NCBI GenBank assembly: GCA_023078555.1
Contig: CM041201.1
Span: forward strand, 1,309,713-1,373,712
Direction: 5' to 3'
DNA length: 64,000 nt
DNA from: Ulva prolifera
Taxonomy: Eukaryota > Chlorophyta > Ulvophyceae > Ulvales > Ulvaceae
Positions 13,294-62,046 of this stretch are shown piece by piece (the stretch's first letter is position 1; every line of letters starts with the position of its first letter). The translations under genes were made by a program, and so were the position numbers. A model generated the notes under the pieces. It searched no databases and was not told where the DNA came from. It worked only from the letters and a program-made list of their open reading frames with translations.

Positions 13294-13915
13294 CTGCACA
13301 CAGGCGCGCCCCTTATGTAGTGGCGGTGCGTCTGCGTGATATGTGGCCGGCAGTCGTGGTATGCATATCGCTGCACGACCGTGTGAAGGCCACTGGCTCA
13401 AACTGGGTCCATGCGCAGCGGTCTCAACGGGCATGATGAGTTGTGACCGTCCCCATCAGAAGATTGTTGCTCAACTAGCACAGTTATTTATTGAGGTCTC
13501 TGATAGACAGCTTGCCTGTGTGTTTCCTACGGGAAAGGATGAACTTCAAACTCCAGCTTGATTCATGGGTCATGAGCGTGAGACAGTCGGAGTCTGCATG
13601 TAAGGTTGTCCACACGCTTGGCACACTCATCATTTCCCGACTACGACAAGATGTGGTGCATCGTTCGGGCATGATTCGCAAGCGCCACTGTTGGCCGCTG
13701 TTTTCTGGATGTTTGCTTTCTGGGACTGCTGATTCCAGTGAACAGGCCACTGTTTTAATGCTTGATACATGTGATTTAGCATTCAAACGCTCTTTCGTAA
13801 GCAGATCAATATTATTTATGTGACATCACAGTACAATGCAAGGCGGCTTGATGAGTGCGAGTGGTACTGCACACTGTCATCTGCTGTGCTTTTGTGATGT
13901 CCACACAGGCACTGC

Positions 13916-13961
13916 GTTGTTGCTCGCGGAGCTGCCTGCCTTGCTTGCGTTGTCCTTGTAG
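13916..13961 (+). mobile_element. 46-bp 5'-truncated retroelement fragment (family 1, copy 1) with 12-bp target duplication
   Basis: The insert carries the family core TTGCTCGCGG, a CCTGCCTTGCTTGCG stretch and the 3' end TTGTCCTTGTAG. It sits between two identical copies of CACAGGCACTGC (13904-13915 and 13962-13973). The shared 3' end combined with a very short body is what 5' truncation during target-primed reverse transcription produces. Confidence 0.75.
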
Positions 13962-15399
13962 CACAGGCACTGCACAGTGCTGCATAGTGCCTCGGCGAGA
14001 TCGCAGATGTGATGTGAAGCAGGCAACCAGTCACCCAGTCAGGTAGAAGGAATCACTGCCACCACTGGCCATTGTGCATACAAAAATGTTGGGAGTGCAT
14101 CAAAGGTTCGGCAGTGTGCTCTCTCCAGTGCAGGCCGCAATTCGTGGCATGGTTGTGCCTGCTGTACAGTTTAAAGCGGAGCCAGCCCGAGGCCGCTGAA
14201 GCACTCATAAGTCATGTCCCGCCTCAAGGCCCACCGATATATTTCAGAGCACAGGTGCATCGCAACATGCAAAGTTTGACTTTGCGTGGCCATGTGTGCA
14301 ACTTGGCATTAGTATGCTACTCCGCCAGAATGCAGGAAGCAGTACAGATGAGTGGAGCGCAGGTAGCATCGCCAATAGGGTAACAAACCGGCATACATGC
14401 AGCCACCGTGGTCAGCTTCGTAGTCAGTGTGCCGGGACACACGACCGCAGCGCACAGCAGGCTGCGCTGACCGTACCGATATGGTACCCCCGTGGTATGT
14501 GCGACTAGCACACGTGTGCATGTGAGCACAGCAGTAGAGCATCTCATGATTCTGAAAACCACTCCTGTGTGGCCTGCCAAGGCCATGTATTCACAATTAA
14601 TATCACATCGCAGTGCATTCGTGTGCAACTGTGAATGTGTCACCGTTTCCTGACAGGTGTGTGAGTTGTACCCATACAAAATCAATCCACACGCATAGCA
14701 GTGTGGGAACACGGTAGTCACAAGGCAGTCCATCCGACGTCAGCTGCTTCCATTCACAGCACCAGAGCCTGATCGTGTGGACATGTCGCGGATAGCCCGA
14801 TAGACGCAGGCCTGATCCTGCATGGGTGCGAGACCCGTCCGCTCACTAACTTCCACAGAGTTGGCCCTGTGCGACATGCACATCTGGACATGACACAATA
14901 CGCGGGTAGTCTCATGTACCATTTCATGGCACTGCTGCGGCCCATTTACTTTGCAATCCGCTGATCATGCCGCTTGGCGGCGTTCATGTAGAGGGCAACA
15001 ACAACCGCCATGCACGTGGCCCGCCCTGGTCAATCATGTGCGACCGCACTGCACACGACGCGGGCTTCACTCTCATCGCGCGCCATGTACGTTGACACTA
15101 GATCATACAGGCTTCTCGGTCAAACTGAAATAGCCTCATATGGTCATCCATCGGTAAAACCTCACCTGTCCATGGCAAAGTTAGGTGAACATCGCTGTGC
15201 ATCCTCAAGCAACTGTCTGTGGCCACAGCCTACTCAACAGCACCTCTACATACTGCTACAGCCCGCATGCACGGGCAAGCCCTCGAAGGCGTGTCGTGTC
15301 AGGTGCACACACGGAACGGCTGCCGCAGGGGCGCTCTGCGCTGGCAAGGCTGCAGGAGGCCCCCCCTTGTGCAACACCTGCTCACGGGGTGCCCGGCCA

Positions 15400-18300
15400 T
15401 CACTTCCGCCGGAACATGCTCTTGATCCTCGACCCGAGCCGCTTCTTCGGCTGCGCAGCTCGGGAGGGCTGCCGCCACAGCTCCGCGGTGGACGAACTGT
15501 CGCCGTCGTCGGTGCTCTGCTTCGGGCTCGCACCCTGTACCATCCGCCCCTGCTCTCAGCACTCACGCCATGAACTGCTTCTCAGTGTTAACCTGTCAAA
15601 TGAATGCCGATTTGCCATCTCACACGCAAGCCTAACGGCACATACTCTCGCAGGAGTGACACCACAAGCCTCTGCAGTGGGTGTGCAGTGCCCGTCCCGT
15701 ACACGGGGACCGCACGCAGCAGCGGCCAAGCATTTTTGCACAGCGTCAAGCACATGGCTGCATTCAGATGTCGGTGGACTTGAAACCTGCTGACGTAGGG
15801 ACCAGCGGCACCACCATGCGCACATAACCACACCCCCCTCCTCCCACACCACCGGGGCCGCACGGCCGCCGCACACCCCCACAGCACGCACAGCACGCAC
15901 CTTAACCGACTCCACGGTCGTCGTGTACGCCGAGCCCTGGCTTCGGTCCTTTGAGAACACCGGGGACGGCGGCACCGCGGGCGGCGAGCCGCCGCTGAGG
16001 CCCGCCGACTCCGCGTCGACCGCGCCCGACGCCGAGCGCATGCGCGGCAGCTCGCTCGGCGCCGCACTCGTGTCAACCGATGCTGATTGCGCGGCCGCAA
16101 GCATCGCCTTCGCGCTGCGCTGCGGCGACCGCAGCGTACCGCCCTCGACGCTCTGCCCCCGCCTGAGCTCCCCGCGCCGCTTCGTCAGCAGCGCCGGCTT
16201 CTTCTTGCCCCCCTCATCCTCGCTGTCGCTGGACGACGTGCCGTCGTCATCATCCCCGTCCTCCGCGTCTGTCGCCGTCGCCCCGGCCGCCGACGGCTGC
16301 CGCTCCGGCCCCCCCGCCCAGCGCACGCCGCTCATGTCCGCCGACGCCTGCGCGCCGCTGCCGGACAGGTCCCCACGCGACGGCTCGCTCTGAAGCGCCG
16401 TGCTTTCCAGCGCGCAGGGTAGGCTGCTGCCCTCGCGCAGCAGGCCGTTGAGCTGCGACAGCGGGGGGTCCAATGGCGGCTGCGGGCCGCTGATGCGCTC
16501 GATGTGCACCGCGCCGGCGCCCGCCGCCATGCGCTCCACGAGGTTGTACCCGCCCTCGCCCTGGATCAGGACCTTGAACTCGTCAAACGTCAGGTCGTGG
16601 TACTTGCCGTTCGCGTCCAGCGCCGCCTCCCAGATCTTCGCCTTCTCCTCCTTGCTCCAGTCCACCACCTCGAGGATATTCTGCACCGCACGGCCCGCCG
16701 GCGTGATCATTGCAGCCCGTGCCACCTCCCCCCTGCCCACGCCCTCAGCCCACGCCAGCGCTCGCACAGCACATGCACCCACGGCCAAAGCACGTTTCGC
16801 ACGCTCGTGCCGCAGCACTGTCGCGACTACCGTCGCACCTGCCAATGCAGGTATGCACCGAGTCCATGCATGTATGCAAGTACTCTGCAAACATCACCGC
16901 TTCGCTGTCGCCACGCAGCGTCATGCCTGCCTCAATACCATTCAGTGTACACAGCACATCCGCGCCAAGTCCGCAGCACGCACCCGCAGGTTGTCGCCCG
17001 TGATCGTGTTGCTGTCGTCGTCGTCCATGAAATCAAACACCCAGCGCAGGAGGTTCTCGCCGACAAGGATGTTGTGGTCGATGGCGCCCGCGACAAACTC
17101 GTGGTAGCGCACGAGGCCGGTGCCGTCGGTGTCCAGGTGCTGGAACACGCGGTCCAGGTCATCGTCCGACACGACGTAGCCCGCCTGGCGCACGCCGAGC
17201 GAGAGCTCCTCGCGCGTCAGCGTCTGGCTCTGATTCTTGTCGAGCTTGAGGAAGGCCTTCTTGATGCGCTCGATCTCCTTCGTCGGGGGCGCGTTCTCCG
17301 CGACGATGCGGCGCACGAGCTTCTGGAACGGCGTCTGCTCGCGGTTGTTGTGGAAGGCGGAGACGACGCCGTCGAGGTCGTTCGTGAGGCGCTGCGAGAC
17401 CGAGGGCATCATGAGCTCGTGGAACTCGTGGTACGTCATGATGCCTGCACCCGCCCCGGCGCCCGTCACCACCATGCGGCATGGCAAGACCCTGGCTATA
17501 CCAGCCTATCACCAACGAAAAACCAGGTGATTGCACGGCACACATGTGGCTGTTACGCTCTGCTGATGCAACACATCTGCTGCTGGGTCGGTGGCCATGA
17601 TCTGACGATGCCCGCTGTTTCCGCGGTGCTGCCCACACCTCTGCGTGTCGGCGGGGTGGCTCAATGCAGTGTTGCCCCAGTCAGCCACCAAAACGAAACA
17701 GGCACGCAGCTCTACAACCACGCAGCTGCGGCCACGGCCGCGCGGCGGGTGGCCGCCGAGGCGCGCACCGGAGGTGCCGTGGCTCTCGCCGAGGCGCCGC
17801 TTCACGCCGTACTTCTCAAACAGCCGCCGCAGCTCCTTCTTCGTGACGTGGATACCCGTCGGGTGCAGCGCGTCGTACGCGTCCTCCGCCGAGATCCAGC
17901 CGTCCCGGTCGGTGTCCATCACGCGGAACATCGTCTTGATGACCTGGTCCGACAGGTTGCGGTACTGGTTCATCGTGGCGACGATGAAGTCCTCGATCGA
18001 CAGCTCGCCGTCCTTGCCCATCACAAACTGCAGCCACCGCGATGCAGCTCGCGATCACCCGCAAGAAGGGCAACATCGACGTTCACAAGTCAGGTGGGCT
18101 CTGTCGGTTGGCAGCTGAGTGGCTGTGTCCTCGCCGCCCCATGACCACTGCACTCTCGGCATTCCCGCGGACTTCACCAACCAGGCATGCCGGCTGACGC
18201 GGGCGGGACCCTAGACCGTGGATCTAGAGCCGCACATGCACACGGCACACGTGTGTGCCTCATCACTGCTGCGCAGCACAGTGTGGCCCCATACGGAAGG

Positions 18301-21300
18301 TGGGGGGGGTCCCTCGTTCTGGGCTGTTGATCGGCATGCGCCAAAAATGTGTGGGGGGGGATCGGGGGGGGACGAGGCGCGGCGCTCGACAAGAGGCCGG
18401 TGGAGCGCACAGCCTCTGAGGCGGGGGGTGTCAGGTGCTCCGCCGCTGCAGGCCGCCAAGGGGGGGTACGCACCGTGACGGTGTCGGCGATCTCCTCGGC
18501 CTCGCTCGGCCGGCGGCCCTTGGTGAGGATGGCCGTGATGTCCTCCGCAGGCAGGGGCGTGTGCTTGTCGGTGTTCAGCCGGTTGAAGATCGCAAGCATG
18601 CGCTGCATCTCGTTCTTGTGGATGAACGTCACCGCGAGGTGCATGAACGCGCGCTGCAGCTTGTTCGACGCCGCAAACTTGCTCAGGTTGCGCGCGACCT
18701 CGTCCGAGATCGTCTGCATGTACGGGTCGTTGCCCTCCAGCGCGAGCTTCGAGCCGGTGGCCTTCAGCCACGGGTGCCCGAGCGCATCGCGTGCGTCCGG
18801 CCGCTTCTTCGGATCCTTCGTCAGCAGCCTGCAATCCAGCACCCTATGAGCACCCTCCCCCCTAACCTCTCGACCGTGCGCAGTCTGCACCGAAAGCGCA
18901 TGTGCACCACTTTTGCACCCTTCACTCCGCTGAAGCCAGGTGCTGCTGACTGCGCCGGACATCGCCCCACGACTGGCGTAGGTCCCCCCCCCCCCCCCCC
19001 CCCCCCCCCGCGGGGCCCCCTCTGAGCTCGCGTGGTGCTGAGGCACTCACGCGAAGGCACCAGCTTGTATACATCCACCTGCATCAAATGGCCCCCCAGC
19101 CATACGCCCTCCCCCCTCCCCCTGGGCTGATGCGACACTCAGCGCTGGTGGCATCGGTGCCACCAGACACATGGCCAGCAGCATGAATGCAGACCTCTGC
19201 GATCAACGTATGGCCACCGCGGTACGCGAGTCCTACGGGGCGGGGTGCGCTGCAAATGCCACACAGCTCTGCGTCGCGTGCGACTCCCCGTGCAACGCCC
19301 ACAGGAGGCGCAGGGCGCGATGCGGACAACGCACACCGGGTGGGGGCCGGGTGCGTGTCTGTGGGTGCGTGCATGTGCGCAGGCGTGGGGTGAGTGTGGC
19401 GCTCCCACTACATGCATGCCGCGGCGTTGCTACCGGCCTCGCCGGCTTTGTCCTTGCAACACACGCACGCCACGTGCGCCTGCAGCGATGCAGCCAGGTC
19501 GTACCATGAGACAAAATCGGCGACGACGGGGTGCAGCGCGGCGACGTCGGGCTTGCGCGTCGCAGCGCGCGACATGATCTCCTCCGCGCTGCGGCCGTCA
19601 AACGGCAGCTTGCCGTTCAGCAGCGTGTAGATGATGACTCCGATGCTCCAGATGTCGACCTTGTGGTCGTACATGCGCGACTTGATTTCGGGTGCCATGT
19701 ACGGAATGCTGCCTGCGACAAGGTGCGCATGCATGAGGCTCATGCATGGTGCATTGAGACATAGCTTTGGTGGACGAGCACACTCTCACTGTGACATGTC
19801 AAAGTTCGCTGTCTTTGCAAGCATGGAGATACACATTTCCGGAGGCTGGGGCAATAAGGCTATCGGCATTAGGATGTGAGAACGTGAGATGCACCTGCAA
19901 GGCCTGCAATGGCTTGTCCGCCTCTCACGCGCTGGCTCAGCCCGAAGTCAATGAGCCGCAACGACTCCATGATGGGCTTGCCGCTGGAGGAAGGCTCCGC
20001 GAGACAGAAGTTCTCTGGCTTGAGGTCACCTGCACGCCCGCAACTGGTGAGTGAAAACGCGTCGTAGGTGAAGGCAACACAGGGCGCAGAAGTCGATCGT
20101 GCGCAAAAGCAAGCAATCCCGGTGAGCGGATGATTCATTGATTGAATGTCTAGACAAACGCTGATGATCTACGCTTGCGGGTTGACAGATGCTGAGCGCT
20201 CGTCAAGCAGAGCAAGTCCGCTTCATCAAGCTTGGATCGCGTACACACACCATGAAAAGCTGCAGCTGCTTCGGAGCAAGACTCGCTACACACAAGGGTC
20301 CTGTGAAGATTGCAGGTTCACTTGATTGGCCGCTACTGAAGGCGCGATTCACTGCCGACCAATAAGCCAATGATCGATACTGAGGGTGAGCAGCGGGTCA
20401 GGTCAAAGATGACGTGATATGGGGCCGCACAGTGAACCAAGCCTCGGGAGTGCATAGCATCCGCAAGGACTAGCATGCACACAGCGATCCGCCCGACGTC
20501 CCCGTATGTGTAGCTCTTGCCTTCACTTGAATCCTCAAAGCTGGTGTGGAGCTCGCCTCCTTTGCAGAGCTGCATGACATGCTGGTGTCGTGTCAACCTC
20601 AGCGACCAGACGTTCAGCAGATCTCCATTGCCGAGCACACAGAGGCGATGCTGATGATGACTTCAGAGCGTTGTTGACGTTGCCCTGGTACGTGGCTGGC
20701 ATTCATGGCCAATGGCAGTGAAGCATGCCGCTCTTGTAAATGAGCTGTGCAACAACCAGGCATTGAAGGGGCACAGGGAGCTATACACTTAGCTATGCAT
20801 GAGCATCGCAGCACGTGCTAGATTCTGGCAGGTGTTCATGCCCGTGAATGCCAAAGAAATGACCCCAGACGCACGCGCAATCACCTTGCAAGATGAATTC
20901 CAGGTGCTGCTGAAGCTCTGCCATGACGGGCAACATACAGCGATGCAGACTCCGGACCTGGACCACAATGTTGAACGTCTTTGTTCCAGCAGGTAGGCCT
21001 ATTGCCAGTCATGTTGTCACCGCAGGCCTACGATGTACTGGCAGGTGAGAGAGTGGAGCTGGGCAGAATTGTACCTCCATGACGATGTAGAACTGATCAC
21101 CATTCTCAAACACCTCCATGATACCCACGACTTGCTTCACATCTAGCAGCATGATTAAATGCTTGATCTCCTTGTATACGACCTCTTCGTCCCCCTCTCT
21201 GCACACGCCGCTTTACGCTTGCTTCAACCCCACCACTCATGTGTTCAAGGCACATGCGAGCCAGTCACGCAGCGTACTCTGACACAGTGATATGCTTAAC

Positions 21301-21964: not shown

Positions 21965-22559
21965 GGTGCGATGTTGGAAACTCGGGCTAAATCCAGCGCT
22001 GCTGCGCGTGTGCAGCGAAAGTAAGCACCCATGACCGCTGTGCTAACTAAAGTGGGGTGTCTACACAGGGATTGAGCCTTGTCGGTGCTCAATCCCTTGA
22101 ATTGCCTTTTGACAAATGCATGCATCGTGCTGTACGAGGGATGCAACGCGAACGTGCACGTGACGCTCGCCGCACATGTATGTACACGAATTGAGGCACC
22201 GGAACACTTCGCCGGCTATAGCTTTCCAATGATCCATCAGCGTTGATACATCCAGTCGCGCACCCATCGGCCGGCACGCTCATGATGGGCGATTCGTGAG
22301 CGTTCGCGACCGTTCACCCATGCAGTCGATCGCGACCGACGCCAGTGTTGTTTGCCGCATGCGTGCAACGTTAGGCCGTGTTCAGTAGGTTGACCTCGGT
22401 AAACAAAAAAATTGCAAAAGGCCTGAACGAAGCATGATCTATACTTACGATCATGGTTCAAGTATCGCTGCATCGATAATGTGTCCTGATTCGATAGCAT
22501 TTAAAAGTTATTTGATGATACGTGATGTGTCCCGCGAATGTGTCCGGTGGGGTGTGTGA

Positions 22560-22585
22560 CCCCCCCCCCCCCCCCCCCCCCCCCC
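22560..22585. repeat. C26 homopolymer tract
   Basis: Twenty-six C residues immediately precede the tandem duplication that starts near 22610. Confidence 0.9.
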
Positions 22586-22609
22586 GACGAGGGGAGTACA
22601 CATTGCCGG

Positions 22610-23932: not shown

Positions 23933-26900
23933 CTACCGCCATGCTTTGATAATCCCATCTCTGCCAGCTGCCAGCAGCAGAGGCCCGCTGGAGATGCTAG
24001 CTAGCGCCATGCTCGTCACGCAGTCTCTGTGGCTCTGAGCCTGTTGCCTCCTAAACGCTCTGTCCTCTGCGACGGAGTTTGGCAGGGAAGCACTGCGGGA
24101 AGGACGGCTGTACACCACCTCTTCGCTGACAATGACGGCATCCCCCTCAGATCTCTGAGTGTACCTGACGTCACCCTGGTTTCCCTTCAGGTGCCCACAC
24201 ACCACGTAGCTCTTGCTCCGATCCTTCGTGTTCAGGTATCGGATGCACTTGTCGGTCCCTGCACACAGGACACATGTTTTTTTATATGTTTTTCCTGGCG
24301 GTATTGAGGTGAACAAACGCTGCGGTGCTGCCTGGCGTCTCGACTGAGTCCTTGTAACACATGACACCGGCGCCATCATGCAACAAACCATGACTTCAGC
24401 ATGCGATGTAAAGTAAAGTAAATCTGAATTTACTGAGCCGTATCCTATTGGACATTAAAAACTCCAAATGAACGGGACCACATGCCGATTTGTGGACGAG
24501 CGTGTCCGGGTGACGCCGTGTGCGGAGCACCAACGTCAGGCTTGGGTGAGCGGTGTCATTGCGCTGCTCACGTGTGCGGCATCTACGATGCAGCATATTC
24601 AGCCAGCCGCACCTGCGCAGATCAGCCCGCCCGACGGCAACGGCAGCATCGCGCGGAAGCCCTCGCGGCTCTGCGCCGGCAGCTGCGCGGCGTTCACGTC
24701 CGCGATGTCGTCCGCCGCGAGGCCCTCCGCCGGCAGCACCGTGTCGGCGGGCCGCCGCGGCAGCCAGCAGCAGATGCGCAGCCGTGTCCGGAAGTCCTGG
24801 AGGTCGTACAGCGACATCTCGTTGTTCTGGCCTGCGACGAGCATCAGGGGCGCGGAGCCGGTGTAGCCTCGCACGCCGAGGGCGGCGGGGGTGGCGCTGG
24901 GGCAGACGAGGGCCTGGATGGCGGCGCGGCTGGGGTGCCATCGGGAGTCCACTCGCAACTGCACACCCACATCTAAACAGCTCAGAGCTACGACTGAGGC
25001 AAAGCCCGGGCCAATGCCTTCAACAGACATCGTCCGATAAGTCGGCGGCGCACAGGTCAGACCAAAAGCACGCCCCGAACACCTTTGCGGCTGAGCGTGT
25101 GGTAATCCCATCAGCACGCACCTGCATCCGCATGTCCCACACATGCATCATGCCCCGGGTCGTCCCGGAGCACAGCGCCGGCGCGCCCGGCACGGCCGCC
25201 ATGCACGTCACGACCCCGTGGCTTGGCGGCACGTCCATCGCCCACACCCGGCGGCCCCCGGCCCGCGGGTCAAACGCGCTGATCCCCCCCGCCTCGGACG
25301 CGACCAGCAGCAGCGGCCCCCACACGAGGAGCTTCGTGAGGTGGCCGCTGTCAACGTTTGTCTGCGCGGGGCCGGCCGGCGGGAAGGCGAGCGTCGGGCG
25401 CTGGCTGACGGCGCGCCGCGGCTGCACCGACACGTCCCATAGGTGCATCGAGCCGGTGGAGTCGATGGACGCGACATGCATGGCGTCCGCGGCGTCGTCG
25501 GTCAGGAGGCGCACGTCGGTGACGCTGCCGTCGTGCGCGCTGTACGTGAGCAGCGAGCTGAAGCACGCGATCTGCACGGCAACGCGTCCGTTTCTGCGGC
25601 GGAAGCGACACGAGGGGACACCGGAGGAGGGGGCATGCACATCATGAGCACAGGCCATCGTTTGGCACAAACAAGGCGGTGTGTGAGAGCGTGCAATACA
25701 CTGCCAGAGCCTGTGCTGTGTGCTGTGGGGGATCCAGCTGAGTGGGGATGTGCAAGCCAGGTGCAATGATGGGACGCAGGTGCTGGAGGGACCCCAAACA
25801 TACAGAAGCATTCACGTTCAAATAGTACAGTTCTCACTGAAACCCAAATGGGCGTCTTGGGTTTCACCTTCGGGTTTCAACAATGGGCGTCTAGCCCAGC
25901 AGCAAACCGGCTGATGATGCAGGGGGCGGGAGGGAAGCACCTTGTCGATGTGGGCACCCTCCTTGCCGCAGCCCCACAGCTTCACCGTGCCGTCGCTGGA
26001 CGCCGACGCGAACCAGTGGCAGCGGCTGCGGGACACCGAGAGGCCGTTGACGCCGTGCTGGTGCTCCGCCATGTGTGCGACGAGCACGCCGCGCGGCATG
26101 AAGTCTCCGATGCCGTCGGGGACGTGCTGCGCGGCTGGGCCCGCGTCGACCTCCCACCCCCCGGGCTTGCCTGCACCCACCACACAGCATCGGGCCCGGT
26201 CCAACTTTGTGTTCTTGTTTTGACAGGACCTGTGTATGATTGTAAATGCCGGTATGTTCGAGGCGTGTCTGTCCGATACGACGCCGCGCCAGCCCCATGC
26301 AGCTACCAGTTGACACACCGTTGGGTCCGCCGGAGTCGGGAGGTGCTGTGTGCTCTATGTATAGTCATGTAGGCCGCCGGGACGCAAAATTGCACCGTTG
26401 CCATGTACAATGGAACGCGGTGGTGCGCTATCATCACCCGGCCAACCCTGACACAACACACGCATGAAGTTCCGAACTATGCCGTCCCTGCGGAAGCGTC
26501 TCAGCTAGCAAAGTGATTGCAGAAGAGTGAACGGGCATAGACACACCTAGCAAGAGAATCTCTTACGAATCAACTGTCGCACACACAGCTAGGATGGTGG
26601 CAGCAACGCTGGGCTTGCACGCCGTGTGCGATGAGAGTCTCTGTGCGCCTGCCGAGCATGGCGGCAGTAACGCGCTGCTTGCACACAGCGAGCAGGCAGA
26701 GGTGGCAACTCTCTATGCATCTGGCCAGCATGGTGGCGCACCCTCAGAGTCCAGCGACGAGTTCCGCACGCGACTCTGCAGGATCAGCCGCGACGACAGC
26801 TCCGAGAGAACAGACTCCGGCTGCACCCCCGCCACCGGTGCCATCGACCGCGGCCCCCGCCCGTCCGCCTTCACCGCCCTCGGCGCCAGCGACTCCCCCG

Positions 26901-42571: not shown

Positions 42572-44744
42572 TCATGAGTCATGAAAGGTGACTATGCTAT
42601 TGCAAAGCTTGTGTTCTGTAGCGATTGGCAGCAGCAGACTGAATTCCCGCTGTGACCACACATAGTCAATACAAGGAGCCTCATGGCACATGTCTGCAAG
42701 ACGGATCTGCGGATGACTCATCTTTGCACGAGAAGCAGCATTTGCCCAAGCGCGCTCAGCGACCTGAGCACAAGGGAAGTGCTCAGAAGAAGTCTCAACG
42801 AAAACGTGTGGCAACGGTAGCCAGGGCTACCATGTCTGCCTTACTTCTCTTGAGTTCATGGCCCTGTGAAAGGCATTGGCACATTGCACAATCGCTCCTC
42901 ATCACATTGTGGTACAAGGACAAAGGCGACGAGGGGGCAGCTAGCGAGCAGTGCAAGGGCGAATCCAGCATCCCAGCACAATTTGCTCCTGCCACAGCCA
43001 GCACAAGCAGAGATCTAGAGCGACTACAGAGACGCACAGTCACACCAACACCCCCCACCAACACCCCCACAGCACGCCCACACAAATTGTGTCGCCTCAG
43101 CTTTGGGCAATGTATCCACCTCGAATGTCGTCCATGCTGACAGACCTCGCTTTGCAGAATGCCTCAGCTGACAAGCTGTCATTCATGATCTTGCTCCGTT
43201 CCCCAGGAAATACACAGGCCATGAACAAGTAACCGTCATCATACGGCCGATCAAACAGCAGATTGGGGTCGGTCTGTAGCCTGGTGTTGACTTGGAGGAC
43301 CTTGCCAGCTATGGCCGCACGGCACTGCATCTCTGTGGGCGGTGTTTCTGTATCTTTTTCTGCAGCCTGTGAAGTGACGCTGCAGACGACGGTGTCTTTT
43401 GTGGTCCACACGCCATCTCGCTTGGACATCTTCTTGCCGTTGGTCTTGATCGATTCAAGGTCTGTCCCTTTGACCTGCATGCCAGTGGACCAGTGAAGCC
43501 AGCGACCGTTTGGCCACATGTGCCCACCAGGATGCATTCCCGCCTATGTGGCATGATGCTGGCCAGCCTGCTCTGATGCTGATTGAGGAATATGCAGCAG
43601 TTTATCCTAACATGCAGACGGAATGCATGACAGGACAACGTCATCTCTGCTTGCCTGAAGCAGCGCTGGAAGCCACAAAGGATACAATCGCAGCGTGGCT
43701 AGCCTGTCTGCCTGTGTGGCCACAGGAAGCAAAGAGATGGACATGTAATGTGCAGAGTGTTGCAGTATAAGCAGATGCAAAGCAGATATGCAACGAGGAC
43801 AATGGTGAAGCACAGAGATGGGTGGGCTTGCAATATGATGGTGCAACTACGTCAATCTGGTGCTGCAGCAGAAGTCGATCATGACCTGTGCATCTGGCCT
43901 GCCCACACAGAACAGATTCACAGTGTTGCACATAGCGGCACAACCGCAAACGCCATTTTTCAACACGCATCTGATCATGCGGCAACAGGGAAGGGCCCCA
44001 CTCAGGCCACATTGTGGGCTACGCCATCAATAGGCGGTGCATACGTTGCTGTAAGCTATGCGGGTAGCTTGCTTCGCTGGGTCATGGATCGACTTGAGCT
44101 GCTGAAAGACTACATGCGTAGCGCAAACCCCCACCACGCATACTCCAGTTGGATGAGCACAAATCTGCATGGCCGATTTGTTATTGTTGCATCCAGGTGA
44201 TTGCATGGCCAAGTGTGCTGACATAGCGTGAGCTAGAGTGCCGCTTGTGTGCTTCAGCAGCTTGAATCAGAAGCGTCGGGGGCACACTCACCCAGTAGTC
44301 ATGCCCACTGGCCCCAACGTCAATGATATACCGCCTGTCATACGTTTTCTCAATATGAGAAGGGGGTCTGGCTGGCATGGACGCCTCCTCTGTAAAGGAG
44401 GTGAATTCTGCGTCCATCTGGCTTGGAGGCGATCTCTATTGTGGTGGCTGACCAAGGTGCAAGGTGCAGGCGTTCGGCAATACGTCACGCGGCATACATA
44501 TCACAGAGAGATTTCAAGTTTCATACATACAAGCCTCTGATCGGCGGGAAGTGGTTCCGACTGCAGCATTTTTGTGGGACACCAACGCATTATCAACAAA
44601 CCAAGCCGCGCTACGTGCCACGAACACCAGTGGGAGTTTGACGTCGGATGTTAGCAGATCTACAAGGTGAGCATACGGAGGCGACGTGCGGAGGAATCGA
44701 GTGGCATTCTCGAACAACTGTTGGTGTCTAGGACACAATTTCAA
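42572..44744 (-). CDS. Unidentified multi-exon gene (coding-like segments)
   Basis: Several minus-strand segments look coding but I do not recognise a family. They are 44744-44514 (LFENATRFLRTSPPY, LLTSDVKLPLVF), 44417-44240 (HIEKTYDRRYIIDVG, YWVSVPPTLLIQAAEAHK), 43537-43100 (GRWLHWSTGMQVKG, LLFDRPYDDGYLFMACVF) and 42790-42575 (RLADMCHEAPCIDYVW). The 43.1-43.5 kb segment is the strongest, at 146 codons with a balanced residue mix and no low complexity. Exon order and joins are not resolved, and more than one gene is possible. No transmembrane run or catalytic motif stands out. The gaps between segments hold nothing recognisable. Confidence 0.35.
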
Positions 44745-45099
44745 ATGAACGCTCGCGCTTCATCAACGCCCACGACCAGCTGCATGCAGCAGAGACCCAA
44801 CGTGCAGCGCCAAAGGACACATCAACGTTGATTGGATGTCCACTTTCTAGATGCTACATCGGTCGCAGCTGCTGCATCTGTGGCTGTGGCATGCCTCTGC
44901 TGTCCTCAACGGAACATGCAACCAGATTCAGCGGAATTTCAACTGTGATGCAGCAAGAAAATCTGTGAACTCAATGATTCAAGGTGTTCGCAGGGTTCAG
45001 ATCGTTGGTCCCGGTGCAGCTTGGCAATCGTTCCGGTGGTATCGGCACCGTCTCGTGTATCAGTGGCGAAACGGAAAGCGATCAACAGCTCACAAGACG

Positions 45100-47749
45100 A
45101 TGGCTACTTATCAGGCATCATCAACATTCGTTGATATGATTCCTCGTCTAGACGGTGCTCCCTCAACTGCCACGTCTGATCTGTATCTTTGGCTTCATCC
45201 CCATATGACCCATGGCCGCATCCGGAACGCCCATCGCGTGGCATCACTACTGTCCAACTGAAATGGTATGTCAGTCTGGTGGATATGCAGGCTCGAGCCA
45301 CAAGGGCCAGCATGGGAAGGTGTCGGTGGTGGGGGGTAATTTTGAGTTCACAGGGGCTCCGTACTATGCTGCCTTCTCAGCCATGCAGGTGGGTGCAGAC
45401 TATGGCAATGTCTTCTGCACCCCAGGAGCTGCCATCCCGATCAAGACCTATTCGCCTGAGCTGATTGTGCACCCGTGTATGCTAGAGCTGAGAGACCTTC
45501 ACACTGGATGGGTATGCAAGGCTTCTCACTCTGTCGGGATGCAACAACTGCCGTTAGCATCCCTATCTCCATAACGCTGATATAGCTTAGTCAATCCAGC
45601 GCATGTCAATCTTCCTCTTGCCTGCAAATTTGACTGTTGCCCCGTGCTGCATTCATACTTTGACGCCTGCCCGACCTGGATCACTTGCAGACGATGCATC
45701 TCTGTCCCATCAATGCCACTCTGCATAGTAAGCTTCTGACATCCGCCAACCGCACATATCAATACTATACTCACTATGGCTCTCAGCTGCGCGCTATGTG
45801 TCTCAGCTGCAGGCTGCAAGAGTGTGCCAGATTTGCCACATCTGAGGCAGCATTAACCCGGGCCTGGGTAGCTCATGGTGTCACGCGTACAGTAGTCCAT
45901 GGCACAGCACCAAGATACATGGACATAGCTACGCATATTGCAGGAGTCCGTCGACATCTCGCTTGAAGTTCAAGAGCGGGCCTCACAGCAGGCAGCGGAG
46001 ACTGTGTTTTCTTGGCTGAGCAGGTCTTCGTGCATGGTCGTTGGGCCAGGCCTGGGCAAGGACTCGGTGATGATTCGGTCTGTGTACCTCATCATGCAAG
46101 AGATCCGGAAGCAGGTGTGTACTGCTGCTCTTGGACTGTGTGTTTCTGGCATTTCGTTGGTTTTGCCCGTGACTCAGACCACATGACTGTCGCACGCTTG
46201 CAAATGCATCGGCAGCAGCGACGTGCGTGACGACGGTCAAGAGACATTCCACGAATACTGCACATGATCCGTAAAGTGCTTCGAAGCGAGTCTGCGTCGG
46301 TGCGAGGCATATGCCACCGCCATCTGATCTGGACAACCCAAGCCAGACTCATACACATGTATCCTGTATTACCTGTATGTATTGTGACTCATGCTGTTCT
46401 GCTCTCATGTCATGTACACATATTACCTGTATGTACTGGCTCATCCTGTATCCGCATGCTATACGCACTCATTGCACATGTGCATCACCCCATCTCGAGA
46501 TACATGCTAGTCTTTCTGATCCTTGCAAGGTTCGCAGGAGCTCTTGATTGAGACTGTACAGCCAGGATTCTCACCATACATATCCCTGCATGCACAATAC
46601 ATCACAGGCCCACAACTGCATTTGACTAACCTGTTGAACATGGTTTTTCAGGGCCTGCCGATGGTGGTGGATGCGGATGGAATCGGAGTCGTGTGTATGC
46701 ATCCAGAGCTAATTCAGGGCTACCCCCGGGCGGTGCTCACTCCCAACGCCCCGGAGTTCTGGCGGCTATGTGACACGTTCAACGTCGAGCACAACAACGC
46801 TCAGCCTCATGACAGTCCAGGCCTGGTGCAAGTGCGATGCCATCCCACTGTTAGTCCTTTCGCGAGCACCACTCTCTCGGAACTGACTGGGCACTTATCG
46901 AAGCCCTGCAGCGACAACTCAAGCTGAAGCGTCTAAATTCTGTTTGTTTTGATTGCCCGCACGCCTTCACGACTGGCTGCAGCAACCTCAGGAGCAGCAC
47001 CGTCTGGCTCTTGCAAGTCGTGACATCACACCCTTGTTCAGGCGCTGGCAAAGCGGCTAGAGGGCCCGATACTGCTGGCAAAGGGTGCACAAGACACAGT
47101 GTGCTCTGCTTCGGGCGAAGTCATGTCCTCTCGGAGCAACGGCTCCCCAAGGCGGTGTGGTGGTCAAGGGGACATTCTGTCAGGAACGCTTGCGTCATGT
47201 GTCTCCTGGGCAGCGTCTTATGCTCGGGATGAGGTGTGCTCGCCTCGCCTGGACAATGTGCCTTGGTCCTGATGCACTCAGGTGGCCGGTGCTGCCGATC
47301 AATCCTTCCTGCCACTGCTGACGCGAACGTCCCACCTTCACACATGCTAGATGCTGTGTGCCTCAGCTGTGCGATGCAAACGACTCACCCATACTGGACA
47401 TACTTCTTTAAAAGAAAGAGTCCTGAATGCCTTGTTTGCTGCTCTCATGGTAGGCCATCCCCAGTCACAGGAAGACAGCCGTTCCCTTCACTGACAAGCA
47501 TGCTGCAATGCCGCTCCATTCGCATGGGCTCCTGTGTTGATACCCCAATCCTTGGTTTGAGGCCCTGTCATGCAGGGACTTGAGGGAGCAGGTGAGCAGG
47601 AGTGCATAAAGCAGGCTGCGGTGAACGCATGTGAGCTCGTGCGCATTGCACAGGCGATGGCCTACGCTGAGAGAGGCCGGTCCATGGTCGCGAGTGACAT
47701 CCTACGCTACCTGCAGCCAGCAGTGCAGCAGTGCTGGAGGCACACTTGA
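45100..47749 (+). CDS. NAXD: ATP-dependent (S)-NAD(P)H-hydrate dehydratase
   Basis: Exons: 45100-45154, 45291-about 45510, 45944-46114, 46652-about 46800, 47042-47233, a short one near 47418-47450 and 47576-47749. The enzyme restores NADH/NADPH from damaged hydrated forms using ATP or ADP. Family landmarks appear in order: [77 protein letters not shown], then [12 protein letters not shown], whose Asp is the catalytic base, and a C-terminal helix ending [10 protein letters not shown]. Everything needed for catalysis is visible. The start at 45100 ([10 protein letters not shown]) gives a short N-terminus. An in-frame ATG at 44851 would add about 80 residues, possibly a targeting sequence. The stop codon lies within the left copy of a target-site duplication made by a retroelement insertion just downstream. 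Confidence 0.93.
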
Positions 47750-47757
47750 AGCACCTG

Positions 47758-47860
47758 TGTTGGTGTGTGCTGCGTGTGGCTGGTTGCGTGGTGTGCGGTT
47801 CCCCTGGTTGCTGCTCGCGGTGCCACCACTGCTGCGGCCTTGCTTACTTTGTCCTTGTAA
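47758..47860 (+). mobile_element. 103-bp retroelement insertion (family 1, copy 2) abutting the NAXD stop
   Basis: Flanked by identical 17-bp copies of CACACTTGAAGCACCTG at 47741-47757 and 47861-47877. The body includes GTGTGCGGTTCCCCTGG, TTGCTGCTCGCGGTGCC and the family 3' end TTTGTCCTTGTAA. Duplications this long and perfect argue for a recent insertion. The left duplication contains the NAXD TGA stop. Confidence 0.88.
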
Positions 47861-47877
47861 CACACTTGAAGCACCTG

Positions 47878-50254: not shown

Positions 50255-51486
50255 GCACAGCAGGGTTGGTGAAGAAAGTGGATACCGATTTGGCGGTCAA
50301 TCGACGGGAACCGTACTTCAAACGCTGCTCTTTTGAAGAACGATGTTCCGTTTCCTGGTGTGGTGAAAGGCATGGACTAGACTCACGGATCCTACGATGG
50401 TGTGGAAAACAGAGATGCGAGACAAGTTCTCATGTCACCCACATCATGTGCTTGTGCGTGCTTCAGGCAAAGGCAATTCCTGTGACCTGAAGCACTGGGC
50501 CTGGATCAGCTGATGTGCATGCAATCATCAACATGAGAGCCAGGCAGGGAGATCGCGCGCCTCTGCCAGCTCTCTCAGCACTTGTGGCTACAATCGGCAC
50601 AATGCTGTCATGATTGATCAAGGCGCCTGTACATGTACCTACGGCAGTTCATTGTTGTTTGAGGATCGATTGCAGCCACTGCATGGATGTAATTGCACCT
50701 GCACACAGCCTATCGGGGTGGGTTGCATGTGTGTGTTTGTGGGTGTGTGTGGTCTTGTGTGGGTCACAAGGACAAAGCAAGCAAGGCAGGTAGGCCCGCG
50801 AGCAGCAACCAGGGGAACCGCACACCACGCAACAAGCCACACACAGCACACCCACGCATCACCAGCGACCGCCCCGGCCACAGCCACACACCCACAAACA
50901 CTCACAAGCATCACACCCAAGACCCACAAGCACACGTACACCCACCCGCACCCCGCCCACCAGCCAGGCACAAGAGCCCCGAAAGAAAGAAGCACCTGCA
51001 GCCAAGGCCGCCGAGCAAAGAAACAGCCAGACCCCACAACAAACAGTTGCGTAGTCTGCGGTTCCCCCGGTTGCTGCTCGCGGTGCTACCTGCCTTGCTT
51101 GCTTTGTCCTTGTAACACACAGCCTATCGGTCCTCCAGACCACTTGCATATGCACATCTCAAGCATGCACGGCACGCTGCCAAAGCCTCCCACCGGGGAC
51201 GATGCGGCCTGAAGGATCATGCATTGACTTGTGGCGTCATCATCTCGGTGCGTCGAGGGGCACGTTGCGAGCAGCGATGCAAAGGCTGCGGTCAATAGAT
51301 TATTGTGTCTTGACGCTGTGGAGGCAGACGTGGTCTTCAGCGTGCAACTCCCGGAGAAGCTTTGGTGCTACTGCAACGGTGTCTATGCGCGCAATTGGCC
51401 ATTTGATAAAGACGATCGCGGTCACCATTCATATGTAAAGTTCGTGTTCATTAGATGTTGTGATCCCCAGCTTGTCAACCACGACG
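50255..51486. other. Spacer between OSCP1 and FAM184
   Basis: About 1.2 kb carrying the largest balanced-composition insertion of family 1 (50717-51115). The remainder is presumed 3' UTR and the FAM184 promoter. No gene is recognised. Confidence 0.5.
50717..51115. mobile_element. 399-bp retroelement insertion (family 1, copy 3) with internal inverted arms
   Basis: Flanked by identical 15-bp copies of CACACAGCCTATCGG (50702-50716 and 51116-51130). The right end carries TTGCTGCTCGCGGTGC, CTGCCTTGCTTGCTT and TTTGTCCTTGTAA. Near the left end (about 50759-50835) the same roughly 75-bp sequence appears in reverse complement (ACAAGGACAAAGCAAGC, CGCGAGCAGCAACCAGGGG), so the transcript could fold into a long hairpin. 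The interior is CA/CAC-rich and has no meaningful open frame. Confidence 0.88.
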
Positions 51487-57400: not shown

Positions 57401-57469
57401 AGATCCTCTTTCAAAACTAGTAGTGCGAGGGCTTCAAACCGCAAGGCAGAGCTGAAGCTGGACCGATGA
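51487..57469 (+). CDS. FAM184A: FAM184 family coiled-coil protein
   Basis: Fourteen exons join in frame to 1,128 codons, matching the roughly 1,140 residues of human FAM184A: 51487-51522, 51613-51858, 51981-52187, 52456-52713, 53048-53398, 53658-53819, 54122-54496, 54622-54813, 54978-55205, 55544-55746, 55844-56234, 56353-56643, 56893-57093 and 57224-57469. Exon 1 has only 12 codons (MAENPYQMPDLQ) and leads into the family hallmark RMSKKIAQLTNVIHHLHTK. The body is almost continuous alpha-helical coiled coil, rich in Glu, Gln, Lys and Ala. The family C-terminal signature is present: ELRAQWETRGPREEDVEQI and, across the last junction, LLREDNYNNRF, followed by a basic Ser-rich tail. Family function is poorly known; its distribution follows ciliated organisms. 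All 13 donors are GT and most acceptors are GCAG. The A/B choice in the symbol is by convention only. Confidence 0.93.
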
Positions 57470-58104
57470 GGCCCGGCATACACTTGTGACTATTTTTGGA
57501 GAAGGTTTGAGTAACTTTTGACGGCATCTGATCGGGTGTCACTTACAAATTCCTCTGTGTACACCTGTTGAGATGCCGACTGGGCTGAGTGGTTTAAGTG
57601 GACATGCGACAACAGAATCCACAGCTTCAGGAAAAGTTTGCATTGCCTAAAGCACAGCCAACGATGCAAGAGTGCACGCTTGCGTAAGTCGTTTCACATT
57701 TTAGCAGCTTTTACCGTCGATCGTCCAGATTACCTGTCGACCGGCGGTTCAAATTGTGTCATGCGTGTCACTGTCTTCTTCGTGTCGATGACGCCTGCCT
57801 GAGGCGATGAATTCAATCTGAAGTACCTTGACAGACGTTCATGTCCACTTTCGGCCGTAGTTCCTACACCGGACGCACGGCGCGGACGCTGGCCGCTGCT
57901 CTGCCTGGGCCCTCCCCCAAACAACACAGACGAACCTGCACCACAGCAACGCAAGACGCAAAAGCGGGGGGCACTATGTACTATTCGGAGCTAACTGTAC
58001 GTTGTAACATCGTTTGGAATAAACTGCATGCTGAACACCGGCGACATAGAAGTTGTAGTTAAAGGTGCTGGTCGGCAGATGCCTGCTGCAGGGCAATTTG
58101 GTCA
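57470..58104. other. Spacer between FAM184 and the methyltransferase
   Basis: About 630 bp, probably the FAM184 3' UTR and the next promoter. An ATG at 57841 opens a 73-codon frame that does not connect to the methyltransferase domain. Confidence 0.45.
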
Positions 58105-59327
58105 ATGCTGCAGGAACTGTACTGGAAAGCTTGCTGCATGCAGTTTGACCATAGCGAGTACTGGGAGGACCGGTACTGCACAAACAGCAGCGATTATGAG
58201 TGGTACCTGAGCTATCCCTCAGTCGCGCCAGTGATTGAACAGCACATTCCTAAGGATGCGTCCATACTGCACGTCGGGGTTGGAACATCAACGATGCACG
58301 AAGAGATGGCAACAGCAGGGTACCAGTCTATTACCAATGTGGACTACTCCCAGAAATGCATTGATATAATACAGGACCGATGGCACTCCAGGTCAGATCC
58401 CAGGAATGTTTGCTTCAGCCGCTTGACATCTGCTCGACCATCATGAACTCCATGAACAGAATTGCAGATCATCCGGCCATCTAATGAAGCTGTATCAGGC
58501 GTGCCGCTCTTTACAGCACCGTAGCTCATGCCTTTGCGTTCGCGGGACACAAGATCTGGCACTGCCCCTCTCAAATCGATCTTGACAACAAGATGGACTG
58601 AATCATGAATGCATGCAGGAGCGGCAACAGCGCCTGCCAGATGTCATTCCAGGTTGTGGACTGCAGACACATGCCCATGTTTGAAGACAGTTGCTTTAGC
58701 GCAGTCCTGGACAAAGGCACAATGGATGCAATGCTGTGTGCTGAAGACGACACTGGAAACGCTGCCAAAATGCTGGCTGAGACCTACCGAGTCCTCCGCA
58801 ACGGTGTGCAGTCTAGGTCTAGGCAGTTGACAGCAAGCCAGCATCGCTGAAAGGCATGCCATGCGTTTGCTGTGTGGACGCACACTATATACAGCAGCAT
58901 GAGCATTTTGAAGCATCCACCCCATTCAGTGTTCCAGCCCCAGCATGAATAATCCATGCTATTCATCAATGCCGCTTCACATCACTCCTGACAAATAGTG
59001 TGCACCACAGGGTACTCGTTTGAGCGCTAGCACATTTGGGCAACGCTCGTGTTAATCCCTCTTGGGTGAGTGAGCGAACATAGGCTGCACCTGAAAACAT
59101 CAAGGTTAACATTTGCAGGTGGTGTCTATGTGTGGTGCACAAGTGGGCTGCCAAACTCAAGAATGCCATACTTCAAGTTCTTTGGCCCTCACAAGCTGGA
59201 AGTGTACGCCGTGGGGGACACTGTGTCAGGGCCGCTGACAGCTGAAGATGCCAGCAGGGTCACAGACGTCAACTTTTCAAGCTATTACGCGTATGTGCTG
59301 ACCCGGACAGACAATGATCTGCAGTGA
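58105..59327 (+). CDS. EEF1AKMT4-like class I SAM-dependent methyltransferase
   Basis: Three exons (58105-58391, 58619-58803, 59119-59327) give 226 codons, near the 255 of human EEF1AKMT4. Features: entry motif HSEYWEDRY, SSDYEWYLSY, SAM-binding motif I ILHVGVGTSTM (GxGxS form), NVDYSQKCIDI (acidic motif after beta-2), DCRHMPMFEDSCFSAVLDKGTMDAML (motif II/III region with the family DKGTxDA), YRVLRNGG and a C-terminal KLEVYAVGD strand. EEF1AKMT4 methylates a lysine of translation elongation factor eEF1A; METTL13-type paralogues share the fold, so the exact substrate is inferred. The gene ends 125 bp from the convergent TXNDC9 stop. The start at 58105 (MLQELYW) could have an upstream extension. 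Confidence 0.85.
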
Positions 59328-59451
59328 GGCAAGAGCTGATGCGGTACACCGCTGCATGCATAACTTGTTGCTGCCATGTGGCGCAGTTGTGAACGTCTGT
59401 GTGGTCATTCGTCAACAGAGAAATTATGTAAGTGTAAATGGTGAAATTTAG

Positions 59452-60238
59452 CTAATCAAAATCAGAATCTTCGTCGTCATCTTGTTTCAACAAATGCTCA
59501 GCCTTCCGGATCCCCGACTTTGGCCCTGTACTTTGATTTACGCGGTCCCCTTCGTGGTATTCTATTACGGAAGCTGCGGCGAGGCGTGCTGCCAGTGCCT
59601 CTGTTGGAAAATCTTCCCTTCCACCCATATCATCTAGGCCAACAACATAGTCCACAACCTTCTCGTTCTTAACCAGTGCTAATGTAGGAAGCATCCAGAT
59701 TTTCAATTTCTCCGTTAGGTACGGGCTCTTTTCTGCGTCAATCTGCATTGCCACCGAGCAGGAGGTCGAGCATGTGTGTGTGCGCCAACAGATTGCATTG
59801 TATGGTGACCACACCTTTACGAATTTGCATTCAATGTGCTGCTTGCACAGAATGCCTAGGTGCTTGTCCATGACCTTGCATGGCCAATTGTTGCGATAGA
59901 AGTGACAGACCATCCGTGCCTCGCCCTTCATAGCAGCGAAAAATTCCTTTTCGGTCTCTATGTGGTTGTACTCCCCGTGCCCTTGTCTCATCCATTGCTC
60001 TCGTTTTTCTCTTGATTTTTGCATTTGCTGCAGAGTACACCTGTGTCGCGTACAATAGATCACATGAACAAAAGTATATAACAAAACTGCGTACTTTGAG
60101 CTTCTCCTGTCGTAATCTGTCCAGATCATCCTCATCGAGGTTGTCCATTTTGTGTATCTGGTCATCGAGGTTGTCCTCTATCTTCTGTGCTGCTTGGAGC
60201 AGAGCATTCTCCATCACTTGATTGACCGCAGCATCCAT
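59452..60238 (-). CDS. TXNDC9: TXNDC9 / phosducin-like protein 3 homologue
   Basis: Three exons: 60238-60095, 60027-about 59816 and about 59742-59452. The protein, about 210 residues, begins MDAAVNQVMENALLQAA and has the acidic helix LDEDDLDRLRQ, then EQWMRQGHGEY, CHFYRNNWPCKVMDKHL (thioredoxin-like fold with a degenerate active site), FVKIDAEKSPYLTEKL, MLPTLALVKNEKVVDYVVGLDD and an acidic C-terminus DDDEDSDFD. TXNDC9 binds the CCT/TRiC chaperonin and modulates folding of actin and tubulin, which suits the tubulin/cilia content of the region, although that link is only inference. The first ATG in the conserved frame was chosen as start. The last 50 residues carry an extra basic/acidic tail. 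Confidence 0.92.
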
Positions 60239-61172
60239 GTTCTTGGTTTGCGACAGAAGATTTTGAATCAAACAGCGTCCGCAGTCGCGAGGATGTCAAT
60301 GCAGGTCCGGTCGATTCGCGTGGGAAGGCCGTCGAGAGCGTCTATCGAACACTGCAAGCGAAGGAAAGGCAGTGGTCAGGAGTCGTGGTATTTCTCCCAT
60401 AGAGCTGTTCGGCGAAGTCTCATGAAAACTCAAGCGCGTTAGATCACTCAAGTCACGGTGGTGACAAGTGCCAACGACCGATGCTGCTGTGCACACATGT
60501 GTAAATCGATCTGGTCAGTGAGCAGCGTTCTTCAGACCAACACGTCGGCAGCCGCAGCACAGACCCGCGTCCCGGTCTCTGGTTTACGTCACTCATATGT
60601 CCACTTTGTTGCTGATGCCCCGCGACGTTCGAGCGTTGCATATGCATGTGCATATGTTGTTGTATACACAGGTCGGCCTGAGGTCGGGTGGCCGACCCTC
60701 AGCCTCCCCGAACCATCGCACGCGAACTCAGTAACTGCCACAGCCCACCTTAGGCACGCTGGGTCCTCAGGCTGCTGACTCATTGCGACCGGGTGGCCAC
60801 AGGCTCGTTGCACAATTGCAAGGCCAAGGCGGGGGCGACCGGACCCAGCTGCAGACAATATTATCATATGGCTGATACCTCCCCCAAGACACCACACGCC
60901 ACACTTGTAAGTTAAGATCTAGAGCACAGGCGTCAAGAAGGGGCCATACGTGGTAGCCTCGAAGGGCTTACAGGTAAGCAGCGCAGCAATTGCTGTGCCG
61001 AATGCATGGTGTAGCAGGCGCCTTCGGTGGTCGGCACCTCAGCTCTTCTGATCGATCTGTTCTCGGGAGCGCGTGAACAGGCGATCAGAAGTGCCATACA
61101 CTGTCCGCAAACACCCAGGCCATGCGCTGAAGGGAGAGTCCTTGCATAGGAAAGCCCAATCGCCTGGGATGA
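60239..61172. other. Upstream region of TXNDC9 and spacer
   Basis: About 900 bp of balanced composition, with frames of up to about 117 codons that lack coding character. The probable TXNDC9 promoter lies in its left part. No gene is recognised. Confidence 0.45.
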
Positions 61173-61186
61173 ATAGCGAGTGTGTG

Positions 61187-61781
61187 TTACAAGGACAAAG
61201 GCAGCAAGGCGGGCAGCACCGCGAAAGAAGCAAACAGACGAAGCAAACACACAGACACCCACGCACGCAAAACCCACCACGCCCAAAAGAAAAACCCATC
61301 ACCGGCGCAGCAATAGACACAGATCCGCAGACCGCAAAGCACACACCCACACACCCATGTGCACAAACCCAAACCCACACACGCACGCACAGACCCCACG
61401 GCCGACACACAACATCACAACCACCAACATCACAACGCCCGCCGCCGTACGACAGGGCCAAACCCAACACACTGCTGCCTGAGGCCGCCCATCATGGCCG
61501 CCCGACTGCCGGGGGCCGCCCTAGCCCCAAGACCCACCCCCACCCCACCGAGCCACAGCACACTACGCCAGCCCGGCACACCGCCGCGCAGCCTCGCCGG
61601 CCCACGCCGCACCGCACCCAGGACAATGCAGCGCCCAAGCCGTCTCCGCAGTCCCTGCACATGCCAACGAAGGCATCCCGCACACCCATCGGACCCGGCC
61701 TAGCCGGAGTAAGAGGCCACAGGTCGGTGGCGTCAAGCGGAGGGGGCGCCCGAGGGGCACCCCACCGCTCAGGCCGGACCG
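61187..61781 (-). mobile_element. 595-bp retroelement insertion (family 1, copy 4), longest copy
   Basis: Flanked by identical 14-bp copies of ATAGCGAGTGTGTG (61173-61186 and 61782-61795). On the element strand the junction reads TTTGTCCTTGTAA then CACACACTCGCTAT, the same 3' end and CACA target start as copies 1-3. Upstream of the 3' end are CGCGGTGCTGCCCGCC, a GT-rich segment, and a GC-rich 5' half. Open frames in the GC-rich half (up to about 165 codons running past the element) show no reverse transcriptase or endonuclease motif, so the copy looks non-autonomous or truncated before any coding region. Confidence 0.85.
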
Positions 61782-62046
61782 ATAGCGAGTGTGTGCGTCT
61801 TGAGCCGAGAGCTCTCGCTAGCGAGCTTGAGGATTCCTTGTTTGCAAAGAGTGGCCCGGGCTGCGAGTGGCTCCAACTGTGTTGGGTGTTGCGCCACCTG
61901 GACCGGGCAGAAGGGTAGCAGGAGATGAATGTGGTGGCATGCAGTCCGCCCGTGCCCTGGGCCGAAACCATAGGGCCAAAAACAACCAAAGTTTGAAACA
62001 GTCATGAAAGTAAACGCACTTCACAAAGGCGCCCCGAGATGCTGGT

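Follow-up and report, generated by a model that had tools for sequence, protein, structure and literature searches.

5'-truncated insertions in Ulva prolifera as very probable copies of an R2-like LINE family, with a proposed mechanism of RNA-primer pairing

Four truncated insertions and their remnants in the window

The window (the whole stretch of 64,000 nucleotides analysed here, from contig CM041201.1 of Ulva prolifera, positions 1,309,713 to 1,373,712 of the forward strand) contains four insertions that can be read directly, each bounded by a perfect direct repeat, of 12, 17, 15 and 14 bp for copies 1 to 4 respectively (Table 1), as the preliminary description had reported. The tail of copy 1 ends in TTGTAG, and not in TTGTAA as given there. 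Copy 4 starts 10 bases ahead of the TGA stop of the LINE open reading frame (ORF) described below (61769-61771, a placement made by eye from the resemblance to loci L025 and L094) and agrees at 92.7% with a family B insert in L025. Copy 3 had been listed as one of the four insertions; the 399-bp insertion and its 15-bp repeat stand, but the element is composite, with about 47 bp in sense orientation, about 275 bp in antisense orientation and then a 70-bp sense 3' end. At its start, the antisense part matches the tail in reverse complement (50760-50776); by eye, it has no target duplication of its own, and the host element apparently lacks about 70 bp at this place. Near 32 kb the G+C content of the window falls from about 60-71% (54% at 20-24 kb) in its first half to 51-57% in its second.

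Table 1 Insertions, target duplications and 3'-end remnants in the window
Feature	Positions	Strand	Basis
5' target duplication, copy 1, CACAGGCACTGC (12 bp)	13904..13915	+	read directly, BLAST
Copy 1, 46-bp 5'-truncated LINE 3' end, tail ending TTGTAG	13916..13961	+	read directly, BLAST
3' target duplication, copy 1, CACAGGCACTGC	13962..13973	+	read directly
Old 3'-end remnant, tail TTGCAA followed by CACA	19424..19459	+	pattern, BLAST
Old 3'-end remnant, followed by CACA	24322..24357	+	pattern, BLAST
Third remnant, tail TTTGTCCTTGTAC followed by CACA	42912..42924	-	pattern alone, without BLAST match
5' target duplication, copy 2, 17 bp	47741..47757	+	
Copy 2, 103-bp 5'-truncated copy with family A tail	47758..47860	+	
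3' target duplication, copy 2, 17 bp	47861..47877	+	
5' target duplication, copy 3, 15 bp	50702..50716	+	
Copy 3, composite, outer sense parts about 50717-50763 and about 51046-51115	50717..51115	+	
Antisense family A 3' end within copy 3	50766..51042	-	ends approximate, from BLAST
3' target duplication, copy 3, 15 bp	51116..51130	+	
3' target duplication, copy 4, 14 bp	61173..61186	-	
Copy 4, 595-bp family B copy, spanning the whole 3' UTR	61187..61781	-	
5' target duplication, copy 4, 14 bp	61782..61795	-	

A 17-base pattern consisting of the tail plus CACA, with at most three mismatches, was found 9 times in the window, where 0.07 occurrences would be expected. Two weaker remnants that had been suspected are real, their tails being located at 19447-19459 and 24345-24357 by both pattern and BLAST, and a third one (Table 1) had been overlooked. 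When nine family members were compared with the window by BLAST, matches fell at the four copies, at 19417-19466 and at 24322-24361, with weak ones at 8609-8634 and 19337-19371; there was nothing at 42912, and five shuffled windows yielded none. No convincing target duplication was found at the three remnants examined. At 8607-8634 on the minus strand a tail pattern with three mismatches and a 26-bp BLAST match lie within a long open frame, and this may be a fourth, very weak remnant.

Tails, duplications and truncation across the genome

The assembly searched comprises 88.9 Mb in 44 contigs. A search of the whole genome returned 1617 exact copies of the 13-base tail TTTGTCCTTGTAA (813 on the plus and 804 on the minus strand), against a single copy (0 and 1) of the reversed pattern. 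The tail is directly followed by CA in 1454 of the 1617 cases, 1176 of these 1454 reading CACA, and 163 of the 1617 lack the CA. A second tail variant, TTTTTCCTTTGTAACACA, occurs 261 times against 0 for its control. At least four tail variants (A, B, C and D) can be told apart by eye, listed from the 33 of 52 extracted tails that carry G[CT]GGTGC and the fixed end; these letters are shared because the tails were selected for them. The tail is conserved across several variants and no terminal repeat unit was seen. A weak hairpin of 4 pairs, none with a compensatory change, can be drawn in the tail and is for that reason not counted as evidence. The exact plant-type telomere repeat (TTTAGGG)4 is absent from the genome.

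Duplications of the flanks are likewise a genome-wide property of the family. Among the first 30 loci in map order, with repeats scored after the first four bases behind the tail, 10 have a flanking repeat of score 11 or more, compared with 12 of 810 mismatched controls; since L050 and L051 represent a single site and L043 a tandem pair, about 8 of the 10 are independent. When CACA was required, 27 of 57 anchors reached a score of at least 11 (controls 3/560), and a score of at least 9 was reached by 37 of 72 anchors (controls 13/571). The 20 of 30 map-order loci that are without a repeat at the strict score may in some cases hold elements longer than 1.45 kb or decayed ones. Where a duplication is present, the element measures between 23 and 1083 bp, the loci giving room for up to 1.45 kb, and the measured copies have scattered 5' ends. 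The constant, non-poly(A) 3' end and variable 5' ends noted in the window are thus borne out at loci elsewhere, and the observations that the preliminary description had named as fatal to its reading, fixed 5' ends or duplications no more frequent than chance, were not encountered. A DNA transposon was rejected on the strength of the variable 5' ends and the variable duplication lengths.

Short copies of this kind could also be SINEs or similar non-autonomous elements with a tail taken over from the LINE. The tail families do differ, and beyond the last 70 or so bases most of the 41 matches listed cannot be aligned to copy 3. Against this, the longer copies of families A and B extend upstream into the 3' UTR of the LINE and the end of the same ORF, the 5' ends are scattered as described, and scans of the window for tRNA genes and for Rfam families found neither, all of which makes a SINE origin very unlikely.

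An open reading frame linked to the tail

The preliminary description had called for a LINE whose 3' end matches the tail, and such an element was found, with an ORF of about 1531 aa. Locus L094 holds, at 4720-5699, a 980-bp element with a 14-bp duplication (CACAGCCTCATGCA) which starts with 139 codons of the C-terminus of this ORF. The 139-aa C-terminus is present at at least 150 places in the genome (all 150 scored, out of 1476 candidates, match), and the open frames around it measure 1463-1556 aa in eight of the places scored. Inspection of the 3' 980 bp by eye showed neither long terminal repeats nor an integrase.

On contigs C1-C3, which carry 59 of the C-termini, the second tail lies 547-616 bp 3' of the C-terminus on the same strand in 15 of 59 cases, against 0.06 expected, and in one further case on these contigs at 972 bp. 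On the opposite strand a second tail is found within 800 bp of 3 of the 59, which may be nested antisense copies. There is no exact second tail within 800 bp of the remaining 44 of 59, four of which, on C1, carry the first tail instead. Exact first tails lie 549 and 631 bp past two C-termini on C1; in distances taken by hand, the 13-base tail is at 549 bp behind the 1535-aa frame at C1:786 kb and at 574 bp in another case. In a copy on contig C7 (613.6-618.8 kb) with a 1531-aa frame, 1121 bases were read in frame over the reverse transcriptase (RT) and a further 771 in frame before the C-terminus, the C-terminus itself being known as an 82% match rather than read. The second-type tail of this copy (L097) occupies the stretch from 552 to 565 bp past the last codon, as counted by hand, and sits in a (CA)n run. 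The source of the window insertions is an autonomous LINE.

A different source was considered in Penelope-like elements, which combine a GIY-YIG endonuclease with an RT and whose relatives prefer (CA)n sites. Three ORFs of about 1025 aa with GIY-YIG (L094:3-3065, which is C1:3503402-3506464, C8:5479275 and C3:5669265) look to us like Penelope-like elements with an N-terminal endonuclease, and one of them is followed, 5 kb further on, by a tail in the same orientation. The ORF on C1 also carries a YVDD-like RT box, and only GIY-YIG is significant in Pfam. However, the tail near that ORF is part of the 980-bp element, a distinct insertion bounded by its 14-bp duplication, and this insertion contains the C-terminus of the LINE, which largely refutes the idea. 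No tail was seen at a matching distance from the other two ORFs (451 bases read for each), and the genome has only four GIY-YIG hits compared with 1617 tails. No linkage of GIY-YIG to the tail was found; this source was rejected, and that the copies are Penelope-like elements is to be regarded as extremely improbable. A gypsy-type RT was likewise rejected as source, the 11-base core of the tail being found in 0 of 30 loci (L061-L090, about 3.5 kb each). A separate locus, L091 (C4:1121000-1125000), has a gypsy-like pol ORF that looks to be of LTR type, in which a Cys/His stretch between the apparent RNase H and integrase regions resembles, by eye, a PHD finger.

The RT encoded by the autonomous LINE resembles that of R2. 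The RT segment (L095, C7 copy) matches Pfam RVT_1 at E=1.1e-4 with 22.4 bits, below the curated cut-off of 29.6. Its best matches among solved structures are chains named R2 (E=2e-4 and 2.7e-4, and another R2-named chain at 0.61), while two further chains named "Reverse transcriptase-like protein", presumably R2 of Bombyx, match at E=0.007. Behind the RT, the C7 copy has an in-frame finger C-x1-C-x8-H-x3-C followed by RHN, with an Ala/Pro-rich stretch of about 170 aa between RHN and GD. In L005 a single copy contains a GD-x12-D motif, which spans the start of the 139-aa piece. Residues D4, K34 and Y38 of the 139-aa piece are conserved in three relatives, one of them at 45% identity, and K-x3-Y is present in all three. 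We take the order of finger, RHN, GD-x12-D and K-x3-Y to be that of the restriction-like endonuclease (RLE) of R2-group LINEs. The PD motif of the candidate endonuclease has G where P is usual, and searches of the region against Pfam and PDB gave no match, so that the assignment rests on motifs and position; judged by these, the LINE probably cuts DNA with an RLE.

The element could also belong to the Dualen/RandI LINEs, which combine an AP-type endonuclease with an RLE. The ORF is long, its first 557 or so aa are outside the part read, and such LINEs are reported from Chlamydomonas and relatives (PMC8226300), with which the Ulva family would have an RLE domain and perhaps an algal host in common. 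In contrast, the 8 kb upstream of each of the 59 C-termini on C1-C3 contain none of the 20 hits to PF03372 or PF14529 on these contigs, and within the sensitivity of the profiles a Dualen/RandI affiliation is accordingly unlikely. Both profiles detect another LINE of this genome. That AP-type LINE, with an ORF of 1574 aa, is present in many copies of identical score (C1, C2, C3 and others) and looks recently active; as a source of the tail it was rejected, since it is not co-located with the 59 C-termini on C1-C3.

With a LINE ORF linked to the tail, an R2-like RT and RLE motifs, the earlier reading of the insertions as products of target-primed reverse transcription (TPRT) by a LINE-like enzyme is supported, and the four insertions in the window are very probably 5'-truncated copies of an R2-like LINE family, apparently of RLE type, for which a priming mechanism is proposed below.

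Target site, priming and comparison with known LINEs

The division between target and element at the 3' junction was examined in 29 distinct insertions with a repeat score of at least 10, about 2 of which are expected to have matched repeats by chance (controls 21/864). In the upstream copy of the target, position +3 is C in 27 of 29 and position +4 is A in 27 of 29, and the full CACA is present in 19 of 29. Five clean insertions with perfect repeats of 10-31 bases do not have it: L022, L029, L035, L036 and L057 read TGCA, TGCA, AACA, TACA and AACA upstream and CACG, CACA, CACA, CACA and CACA downstream, respectively, and the two target copies of L022 disagree at +4 as well. Other non-CACA cases were not counted as clean because they lie in simple or self-similar sequence (L002, L003, L011 and L050), and L026, with one mismatch, was set aside after an exact check did not reproduce it. 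The preliminary description had placed the whole CACA at the start of the target; its last CA does belong to the target, being found in the 5' copy, but the five clean cases argue against the whole motif. Reading nnCA upstream and CACA or CACG downstream, they indicate that the first CA at the 3' junction is probably copied from the RNA. The genome-wide counts are in agreement, the first CA (1454/1617) being more constant than the second (1176/1454). Counted against an RNA-derived CA are the 163 of 1617 tails without it and the 1535-aa copy at C1:786 kb (L098), whose tail is followed by CTCACACA and not by CACA. A purine stands directly ahead of the site in 24 of 29 insertions and T in 0 of 29, which is a mild signal only, as 4280 of 7091 background CACA motifs (60%) are also preceded by A or G.

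One may instead hold that CACA is all target and that the five nnCA cases reflect later mutations or unusual second cuts. The frequency of CACA in the matched upstream copies speaks for this, as CA precedes CA in only 11% of the background. It is opposed by the five cases themselves, where the repeats are otherwise perfect and the CA at +3 and +4 is kept upstream, and by the greater constancy of +1 and +2 over +3 and +4. We consider this explanation rather doubtful, though it keeps appreciable weight.

The priming mechanism proposed for the LINE would begin with an RNA transcribed from an element with one long ORF, encoding RT, CCHC finger and putative RLE, and a 3' UTR of about 550 bp ending in TTTGTCCTTGTAACA. 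The RLE would nick the bottom strand at a CA, usually within CACA (with the mild purine preference before it) or in a (CA)n run, and so expose a primer ending in TG-3'OH. The enzyme would hold the RNA at its 3' end, which it may recognise by sequence, as suggested earlier, and the terminal CA (or CACA) of the RNA would pair with the exposed TG, reverse transcription starting there and positions +1 and +2 of the junction being written from the RNA. Reverse transcription would often end early, resulting in 5' truncation, and a second cut some 10-20 bases away would create the target duplication.

An RNA end that adds CA beside a target CA would leave a fresh CACA at each 3' junction, which could be hit again and could yield nested and tandem copies. 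The elements are also GT-rich in the sense strand, and their antisense strand therefore offers CACA. Copies with the second tail are inserted antisense, with duplications of their own, in L004 and L053, and L025 has an antisense family B copy. Among the first 100 tail places listed on C1, 5 of 99 gaps are shorter than 100 bp, against 0.09 expected, and 3 of these 5 belong to one 39-bp tandem array. This array (L060, C1:1803766-1803899) repeats a 39-bp unit, made up of target plus a 28-bp element end, in tandem with four tails, and may just as well stem from duplication of the locus as from repeated insertion. It is a tentative proposal, for which we see somewhat less than an even chance, that the RNA 3' end supplies half of the landing motif, that RNA-primer pairing and not the endonuclease alone sets the target, and that insertions rebuild the landing site and thereby seed arrays.

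The RLE-type LINEs include CRE, R2, R4, NeSL and HERO, and the layout of the Ulva element appears to agree with the group architecture as outlined in PMC3636483, namely a single ORF with an RT followed by a CCHC finger and, in Ulva, a PD-(D/E)XK-like candidate endonuclease. R2 is confined to rDNA or its spacer, whereas the Ulva copies are dispersed. The chains matched at E below 1 are also shorter (1114-1390 aa) than the Ulva frame of about 1531 aa, with its Ala/Pro-rich insert in the endonuclease region. Insertion into (TG)n or other microsatellites is described for Togen of fish and for microsatellite-specific HERO families, both of RLE type (PMC4640811). Ulva targets, by contrast, are often short CACA or nnCA sites in unique-looking sequence and only sometimes (CA)n. 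Stringent LINEs such as UnaL2 are of the AP-endonuclease type. In UnaL2 and zebrafish LINEs the RNA 3' end is recognised by sequence (PMC3747384 and PMC4176376), and UnaL2 ends in TGTAA repeats (PMC3747384), whereas the Ulva tail leads into a CA with complementarity to the primer at the target.

Our literature search, as far as titles and partial texts go, returned no description of this LINE family, and matches to the letters of the tail were unrelated by title. Since targeting of (TG)n by RLE-type LINEs is known, and recognition of RNA tails as well, the family is new and its type is known; Togen is set apart by its description. R2 and other RLE-type LINEs are in development as RNA-templated gene writers, R2 itself being bound to rDNA. 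With a highly successful family of probable RLE type whose target is short and dispersed and whose 3' tail is defined, and with natural junctions at hand, one could test directly to what extent RNA-primer pairing determines the choice of target in TPRT. If the proposal is true, RNA-primer complementarity co-determines the landing site and the element seeds its own tandem and nested arrays. Compared with the known systems, what is less usual in Ulva is the dispersed short target, the abundance of the family, and junctions at which RNA-derived and target-derived bases can be told apart.
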